Below are positions 7,342 to 47,674 of a stretch of DNA of 64,000 bases, one piece after another. The notes below the pieces were generated by a model, which saw only the letters and a program-made list of their open reading frames with translations, had not been told where the DNA came from and searched no databases. Where the stretch lies: NCBI RefSeq assembly GCF_009834785.1, contig NZ_WUYX01000015.1, forward strand, positions 1-64,000. The letters are read 5' to 3'. Both the position numbers and the translations under genes were made by a program. This DNA comes from Natronorubrum halalkaliphilum (GTDB lineage: Archaea > Halobacteriota > Halobacteria > Halobacteriales > Natrialbaceae). Numbering within the stretch: position 1 is the first letter of the stretch; every line of letters starts with the position of its first letter.

Positions 7342-7647
7342 ATGAACTGTCGGTTCTGCAACGACGCGGTTCCGTTCACCCAACACGAGATGGCGCATCA
7401 CCTCTTCGAACTCACCGATATCGACGCTCGGTGGCGGCTCTGCCGCGACTGCGCCGAAATCCGAACGGAGGGAACCAAATACCACGGCGCGGGCAACCAG
7501 CAGGAACGCGGCTCGTGCATCGACTGCGACAACGACGCCGAGTACGGGATTACCCTCCTGAAGGAGACGCCTGCCGGGGACGTCGTCCCCGACGATCACG
7601 TGTATCATGTTCTGTGTGCGGACCATTTCGACGATCGCCAGCACTGA
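7342..7647 (+). CDS. Small zinc-ribbon-like protein
   Basis: A 101-aa protein with cysteine pairs CRFC (residue 3), CRDC (about 36) and CIDC (about 57), plus further Cys/His (HVLCADHF) at the C-terminus. This spacing suggests one or two zinc-binding knuckles. Start ATG at 7342. The gene ends immediately before a repeat-family copy that begins at 7647. Function unknown; nucleic-acid or protein binding is a guess. Confidence 0.7.
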   Translation: MNCRFCNDAVPFTQHEMAHHLFELTDIDARWRLCRDCAEIRTEGTKYHGAGNQQERGSCIDCDNDAEYGITLLKETPAGDVVPDDHVYHVLCADHFDDRQH

Positions 7648-7734
7648 TACGGATTGCTGTAACTAGTTACCGCCGGTCACCAGAGCGGGATCGGCGATCG
7701 GCGATCGGCGGTAATTGACTACAGTAAACCGTAT
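7647..7734. repeat. Palindromic interspersed repeat, copy A
   Basis: An 88-bp imperfect palindrome. The left arm reads ATACGGATTGCTGTAACTAG and the right arm, read in reverse complement, starts ATACGGTTTACTGTAGTCAA. The interior is GC-rich with GATCGGC units. The same ends recur near 8479, 17236, 47374 and 54737. The copy lies against the zinc-ribbon gene and overlaps the 3' end of the HAD reading frame, supplying its stop codon. It may be a MITE or a folded RNA terminator. Confidence 0.8.
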
Positions 7735-8436
7735 GAGAGGGGACTCACTCGAGCACCGCCGGCAGTTGCGTGAGCGATGAAGTCGATACGTCGGCGTGAC
7801 GTCGCGGGTGTCTGCGGTTTCGATTTCGGTGCCGGTGTCGGTGTCGGTTTTACAGTCCGCACTCGAGCGCGTGAGCAACGCCGAATCGATACCCGCGTTG
7901 TGGGCCGCCCGCACGTCGACCGACCGATCGCCCACGTACAACGCCGATTCGGCCTCGAGGGAATCCATCGCGTTCTCGATATTCGTCGGATCGGGCTTGC
8001 GTCGGGCGAACCCGTCCGGAGTCAGCGGACAGCCGTGGACGGTTTCGAACAGCGACCGGAGGCGAACCCGGTCGAGCAGTTTCGTGACCACGGTCGGGTG
8101 GTTGTCGCTGACGACTCCGAGTGGCTGCTCGAGCGATCGGACGGCGGCCACGTCGTCGTAGACCGAGCGCAGCCCGCGCTCGACCGCTCCGAGTTGCGTG
8201 CGAATCAGGTCGCGTGTCGCCTGCGTACAGAAGACATCGGCATCGATCTCGAGGTGTCGACAGCGGTCGGCGATCGACTCGAAGTCGCCGGACATGAGCT
8301 CTCGGAGCGTCTTCGCCGTCGGCCCGGACCGGCCGAATTTTGCGTACGTTCGCTCGAGCGCGTCGGACAGTCGCCGCGACGACGGTGTTTCGACCACGAC
8401 GCCATCGAAATCGAACAGGACCGCGTCGTACTGCAT
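7663..8436 (-). CDS. HAD superfamily hydrolase, probably frameshifted at the C-terminus
   Basis: A phosphoglycolate-phosphatase-like hydrolase. The catalytic core is complete: LFDFDGVVVE (motif I, DxD), GVVSDN (motif II), RRKPDP (motif III Lys) and YVGDRSVDV (motif IV). After residue about 217 the encoded frame becomes basic and runs into repeat copy A, ending with translated repeat sequence. In the next frame, positions 7784-7745 read STSSLTQLPAVLE then stop, a typical C-terminus for this family, so a single-base indel near 7783-7786 is likely. A hexanucleotide repeat (7816-7850) precedes the break and encodes a Thr/Asp-rich linker. The ancestral gene would have ended at 7745. Confidence 0.8.
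   Translation of the reverse strand: MQYDAVLFDFDGVVVETPSSRRLSDALERTYAKFGRSGPTAKTLRELMSGDFESIADRCRHLEIDADVFCTQATRDLIRTQLGAVERGLRSVYDDVAAVRSLEQPLGVVSDNHPTVVTKLLDRVRLRSLFETVHGCPLTPDGFARRKPDPTNIENAMDSLEAESALYVGDRSVDVRAAHNAGIDSALLTRSSADCKTDTDTGTEIETADTRDVTPTYRLHRSRNCRRCSSESPLIRFTVVNYRRSPIADPALVTGGN
7816..7850. repeat. Degenerate GGTGTC-type hexanucleotide tract
   Basis: A short tract of near-hexameric units (GGTTTC, GATTTC, GGTGCC, GGTGTC, GGTGTC) lying inside the 3' part of the HAD gene, where it encodes alternating Thr/Asp-type residues. Similar tracts occur near 24810, 45606 and 47212. Confidence 0.5.
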
Positions 8437-8478
8437 TGCTGAGTCGGTACTCGCCGGGAAAGAAAAAGATACCTACTG

Positions 8479-8557
8479 AGACGGATCGCTGCCCGTCGGT
8501 GTCTGTGGGACCGCGACCGTCCTGCGGTCGCGACGGTACATCGTACAGCAACCCGTA
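8479..8557. repeat. Palindromic interspersed repeat, copy E
   Basis: The left end AGACGGATCGCTG and right end TACAGCAACCCGTATGAGAG match the repeat family (right end nearly identical to copy A after reverse-complement alignment). The centre holds a strong hairpin, CGCGACCG and CGGTCGCG separated by about five bases. It lies between the divergent HAD and S9 peptidase genes. Confidence 0.6.
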
Positions 8558-8699
8558 TGAGAGATCGGCACGCGTCACGACGCGATCGACGGCGTTTCGG
8601 ACGATCCAGGGATGATCGATCCGGCGCCGGGCTCGGCGGATCAGTTACCCAGTTTTCATGTTCTCGAAAAACTAAGTTCGTCCGCTGAGATGCGTCGCT

Positions 8700-47296: not shown

Positions 47297-47373
47297 TACC
47301 CCCTCACTCACCGTCTCGTGGTGCGGGCAGCATCACGGAGAACGCGCCGTTCGCGTTCATCGGTTCTGGCTTC

Positions 47374-47454
47374 ATACGGATTGCTGTAACTATGTATCGC
47401 CGATCGCCGACCCCGTTCTGGTGATCGGCGGTAATTGACTACAGTAAACCGTAT
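47374..47454. repeat. Palindromic interspersed repeat, copy B
   Basis: An 81-bp element with left arm ATACGGATTGCTGTAACTA and right arm ending TGACTACAGTAAACCGTAT, nearly identical to the ends of copy A. Its interior matches the interior of copy A only when reverse-complemented. The flank TCAGAGC matches copies A and D. Confidence 0.8.
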
Positions 47455-47674
47455 CAGAGCAGAAAACTGATTGTCCGTCCAGAACCAGGCGTGGGCCAAT
47501 TCTGGACAGGGGGGAGCCACATTGTAACGCTGAACCGTCACTTAAATCGGAACCGTCGCGCACCGAGCTGTTACCCGTCGGGTAGCCTCGCCGAGCGCCG
47601 ACCAGCCAGCTCACAAAATGTAACATAAAAGGCTCGCCGCTCCGCCGCTGACTCCGCGTCGGGTGGTCGACGAA

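Follow-up and report, generated by a model that had tools for sequence, protein, structure and literature searches.

A palindromic, MITE-like element often placed on TGA stop codons in Natronorubrum halalkaliphilum, and a frameshifted HAD hydrolase gene that ends within one copy

The closest described systems to the repeat reported here are the MITEs of prokaryotes, which, in the sections of two accounts that deal with them, are short and noncoding, have inverted ends and target duplications, reach high copy numbers, and are inferred to depend on transposases acting in trans (Haloquadratum walsbyi, PMC3119063; PMC10969869). For Haloquadratum MITE insertions into other mobile elements, the relevant section counts 30 of 31 in PATEs or IS605-type transposons (PMC3119063). 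The PATEs and SMRs of Haloquadratum are short palindromic or inverted-repeat mobile repeats of haloarchaea, described in that same section without target duplication (PMC3119063). A 3-bp target duplication is given for PIF/Harbinger transposons in the pertinent passage of another source (PMC2213677), and the Rickettsia palindromic elements (RPEs) are treated, in part of one of the two accounts named first, as palindromic repeats turned protein-coding (PMC10969869).

The element described here shares the listed traits of prokaryotic MITEs, including a transposase dependence that we infer, and is unlike them in being a nearly complete palindrome with covarying arms, in its strong placement on stop codons, and in that its parent transposon was not found among the loci searched. 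Duplications of 3 bp of the TNA type also occur in the IS1031- and ISL2-like subgroups of the IS5 family. The element resembles the IS5 family and PIF/Harbinger transposons in this duplication, but a transposase of either kind with the element's ends was not found in the searches given below. Like PATEs and SMRs, it is a short palindromic mobile repeat of haloarchaea; unlike them, it has a clear 3-bp duplication, and its terminal inverted repeats (ends TACGG-TT-CTGTA) further separate it from PATEs, which are defined by the lack of both features. RPEs lie in frame inside genes, whereas the HAD gene described below enters the element solely through a frameshift. With terminal inverted repeats, a target site duplication, and a short, noncoding, multicopy sequence, the element is a MITE in form, with an unusual stop-codon bias. 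A literature search, conducted mostly outside subscription journals, returned no description of the element or of stop-codon-biased insertion by an archaeal MITE.

The window is the whole stretch of DNA analyzed, 64,000 nucleotides of a 4.56-Mb draft assembly in 72 contigs (the source genome, G000). Its relevant features are as follows.

7342 to 7647, plus strand: gene for a small Cys-rich (zinc-finger-like) protein, 101 aa, convergent with the HAD gene
7645 to 7647, plus strand: left target duplication (TGA) of copy A, which is the stop codon of the zinc-finger-like gene
7648 to 7733, plus strand: MITE-like palindromic element, copy A, 86 nt (80-bp consensus plus 6 extra nt), from flank and model comparison
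7734 to 7736, plus strand: right target duplication (TGA) of copy A
7663 to 8436, minus strand: HAD-superfamily hydrolase ORF in its present reading, 257 aa, from the ORF list and Pfam
7746 to 8436, minus strand: ancestral extent of the HAD gene, with the orthologue ending ...PTYRLSSLTQLPAVLE-stop, from orthologue and frame comparison
8480 to 8557, plus strand: third, divergent element upstream of the HAD gene, 78 nt, with target duplications TGA/TGA at 8477 to 8479 and 8558 to 8560
47375 to 47453, plus strand: element copy B, intergenic, with target duplications TCA/TCA at 47372 to 47374 and 47454 to 47456

The third element differs from copy A in its interior and has similar ends; with its duplications (8477 to 8560) it brackets the HAD gene together with copy A. 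For the zinc-finger-like protein, Pfam and NCBIfam gave no match at an E value of ≤0.001. A full-length, sub-threshold Rfam match to mir-5880 over 7645 to 7736 (30.2 bits; gathering threshold, 97) was set aside as probably a chance long-hairpin resemblance.

Copy A was inserted into the zinc-finger-like gene precisely at its TGA stop, and 9 bp separate its right duplication from the ancestral HAD stop codon. Since the TGA duplication rebuilt the zinc-finger-like stop, neither convergent gene was harmed by the insertion. Comparison of the occupied site with relatives recovered empty sites at L324, L325, L326, and L328, from four genomes of other genera, in which the HAD and zinc-finger-like genes are convergent with no element between them.

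The HAD ORF matches HAD_2 (PF13419; E = 4.3e-18; 66.5 bits versus a cutoff of 23.8) and Hydrolase (PF00702; E = 2.1e-14). As translated now, it ends in ...PTYRLHRSRNCRRCSSESPLIRFTVVNYRRSPIADPALVTGGN-stop at a TAG (7663 to 7665) within copy A, as the first-pass annotation had noticed in stating that the frame overruns its natural end and stops in the repeat. That annotation took the last ~25 residues to be translated repeat, which agrees with the ~23 final codons that we counted as element or target-duplication sequence; the final ~39 residues are unlike every orthologue examined. The neighboring frame encodes STSSLTQLPAVLE-stop, with its stop codon at 7746 to 7748, and SSLTQLPAVLE, comprising all 11 residues past the frame switch, is intact there. 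In a base-by-base comparison with Natronorubrum bangense (L037; ...PTYRLSSLTQLPAVLE), the switch falls at a Leu codon, where the source sequence lacks a base between 7780 and 7781, 12 codons upstream of the old stop. A frameshift near 7785 had been proposed; relative to the orthologues it is confirmed, and its position was 4 to 5 nt off. It had also been placed beside a hexanucleotide tract, a loose description, since the GGTGTC tract starts near 7826, ~45 nt from the switch. The tract is not supported as the site because of this distance and because an indel of a whole hexamer would keep the frame.

Orthologue comparison, which had been suggested as a check, bore out the proposal that the neighboring frame holds the expected C-terminus. 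The ancestral end or a variant of it is present in all eight same-genus orthologues (L032 to L039), and it or a close variant is kept at 12 of 12 further loci (L061 to L072; the sets overlap in organism at G007/L061, G006/L062, and G002/L064) and at four of four syntenic loci (L324, L325, L326, and L328). Therefore, the match in the neighboring frame is not due to chance. The shared ending is a variant of PTY-x-x-SSLTQLPAVLE in L032 to L039 and L061 to L072, and the repeat-coded tail was absent from every orthologue in the three sets. L040 was classed as a distant paralogue, the end differs in L073, and L327 has a gene at the corresponding position without the ancestral end. In Natrinema mahii (L074, 4001 to 4159), the middle of the HAD gene has been lost, and matches to residues 1 to 24 and 172 to 198 are adjacent. 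In Natronorubrum texcoconense (L033), another long palindrome, AGTAGACACTGAAA...TTTCAGCGTCTACT, lies directly 3' of the HAD stop.

D9, D11, S110, K147, D170, and D174 are invariant among the compared HAD proteins, and we take them to be the motif residues. To judge from the alignment, the catalytic residues are upstream of the frameshift and are retained; the shift would probably cost the protein its last conserved segment and add ~39 aberrant residues. An AlphaFold model of the protein was not used because its mean pLDDT was 45.6, with an alignment of only 12 sequences.

A core-model search of the source genome gave 146 listed matches on both strands, representing at least 112 distinct places, a lower bound because scoring was limited to 150 candidates. 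The 80-bp core with TGA/TGA or TCA/TCA flanks was present in 27 of the first 30 copies; of the remaining three, two differ by a single flank base and one contains masked bases. Among the matches listed, the two 3-bp flanks are identical in 91 of 112 copies (TGA or TCA in 89 of these), and the pre-insertion target in this genome is roughly palindromic, GWCTSAGWC with a central TSA. The palindrome is ~78 to 80 bp long. In 18 diverse members, chosen by script at <85% identity from 118 pooled elements, 12 of 24 pairs between the two arms have changed on both sides (covariation score, 0.362, versus 0.141 when shuffled, with 0 of 500 as high, and ≤0.157 when slid). This covariation could reflect selection on the hairpin or arm-to-arm repair, either of which would suffice. 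Other subfamilies have the same ends and other interiors. Of 125 family genomes, 72 contain the end pattern; a reversed control pattern had 0 matches in every row. A genome of another genus (G118; L283 to L322) has many identical or near-identical copies, indicating a recent burst. Runs of N lie beside element copies near C45:25313 (L075), C65:11619, and C69:12794 of the source genome; such runs lie no more than 120 nt from 3 of 112 copies (among the matches listed) versus 3 of 1,439 background 320-nt tiles, which suggests assembly trouble at the palindromes.

Nine PF01609 loci of the source genome and 30 loci of seven other genomes yielded no transposase whose ends match those of the element, and PF13586 was absent from both genomes searched for it. 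In G047, a candidate autonomous pair (L254) resolved into small, separate elements. On these results, transposition of the element would be in trans.

Among the matches listed in the source genome, the duplication is the TGA stop of a called gene in 47 of 112 copies, in 40 of the 91 with identical flanks, and in 40 of the 89 with a TSA duplication. Stops make up 8.6% of noncoding TSA sites in a 464-kb background of this genome; weighting for the target motif, with weights derived from non-stop copies, raises this to 17.6%. Genes were called with a home-made codon-usage script (81.5% coding), and small genes overlooked by it would somewhat raise the number of non-stop sites expected; we designed the tests once the pattern was already apparent. 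A second routine placed 42 of 91 noncoding copies on stops versus a motif-weighted expectation of 18.0% (OR = 3.9; P = 6e-10). In G118, where the background was the same regions as hold the copies, the figures were 25 of 63 versus 11.5% (OR = 5.1; P = 9e-9). Between convergent genes, 19 of 31 copies in the source genome (39.9% expected; P = 0.017) and 13 of 19 in G118 (21.7% expected; P = 2e-5) were on stops, and the excess in the source genome alone is modest. Tandem regions gave 22 of 43 versus 16.2% and 12 of 35 versus 13.2%, respectively. Recent and older copies had similar shares on stops (20/52 versus 5/12 in G118; 29/63 versus 11/26 in the source genome), and small samples from G024 (6/8), G089 (3/7), and G047 (2/6) are supportive only.

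Copies inside genes are rare (1 of 112 flagged among the matches listed in the source genome; 1 of 92 and 1 of 64 by the second routine). On plasmid DNA of Natronorubrum bangense, the duplication of one copy coincides exactly with the end of a publicly annotated ArsR-family CDS, and a second annotated copy lies ~18 nt past a gene end. Two other readable genes stop inside element copies, each with TAA at a decayed edge (L142, 2501 to 2580; L150, 2501 to 2576); a gene end inside the element is therefore a rare outcome.

We consider it highly probable that two separate events produced the present arrangement. In the first, a transposase acting in trans, with 3-bp TSA duplications at GWCTSAGWC, would have moved the 80-bp non-autonomous palindromic element into the TGA stop of the zinc-finger-like gene, which the duplication would have remade. 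In the second, independent event, the HAD gene would have lost one base ahead of its own stop (or the assembly would lack that base), and the shifted translation would skip the old stop, cross the 9 bp and the right duplication, and end at the element's TAG. That the element caused the HAD fusion is not supported, as copy A lies beyond the ancestral HAD stop, in the stop of another gene; all that it supplies is the new stop and ~23 codons. Across the genome, insertions in coding DNA would be lost and those in stop codons would be harmless because the TGA is rebuilt, and, should a gene next to an element lose its reading frame or stop, the new end would be set by stop codons within that element.

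The missing base could be a sequencing error, and we entertain both a natural and an assembly origin. There is close to an even chance that it reflects faulty sequencing or assembly next to the palindromic repeat and that the real gene ends at LPAVLE, outside the element: the assembly is a draft in 72 contigs, runs of N are found near other copies, and the intact SSLTQLPAVLE after the switch fits either an artifact or a very recent alteration. However, the base is missing ~45 nt outside the element, in no homopolymer longer than 2, and the rest of the gene has no visible damage. It is also quite conceivable, if rather short of an even chance, that the frameshift is real and that a dispensable gene is starting to decay with the element as a bystander. 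The internal deletion of the related gene in Natrinema mahii and the gene lacking the ancestral end at L327 are consistent with such decay, but the catalytic-motif residues are all kept and the gene has no further lesion. We regard as very improbable a functional extended C-terminus, whether from a domesticated element or through programmed frameshifting. Although the frame is open as far as the element's TAG, and palindromic elements such as RPEs occur inside proteins in examples from one account (PMC10969869), the tail is in none of the orthologues examined, by-eye inspection found no slippery heptamer at the switch, and just two other readable genes stop inside the element, both at a decayed edge.

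The excess on stops may reflect survivorship instead of targeting, with stops being the sole coding-adjacent places where a TGA duplication spares both gene and regulation; we judge this about evenly balanced. The rarity of copies within genes is consistent with survivorship, but the excess remains in convergent regions, which have no promoters, and the stop shares of recent and older copies are alike, though fast purging would also fit the latter. A broader scheme, in our view unlikely, is an archaeal MITE superfamily, spread across the family, that its transposition machinery or the host context would direct to TGA stops. With each insertion, the duplicated TSA at the center of the palindromic GWCTSAGWC target would restore the stop and so provide a safe harbor, and the covarying 80-bp hairpin directly behind it might act on mRNA 3' ends.

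Taken alone, the HAD frameshift is of minor significance. The element bears on how a mobile repeat can exceed 100 copies while a dense genome keeps its genes unbroken, in that many of its insertions fall in stop codons and restore them. This amounts to a testable explanation of how insertion can be safe, and when the stop of a gene nearby is lost, the element can furnish a new 3' end.
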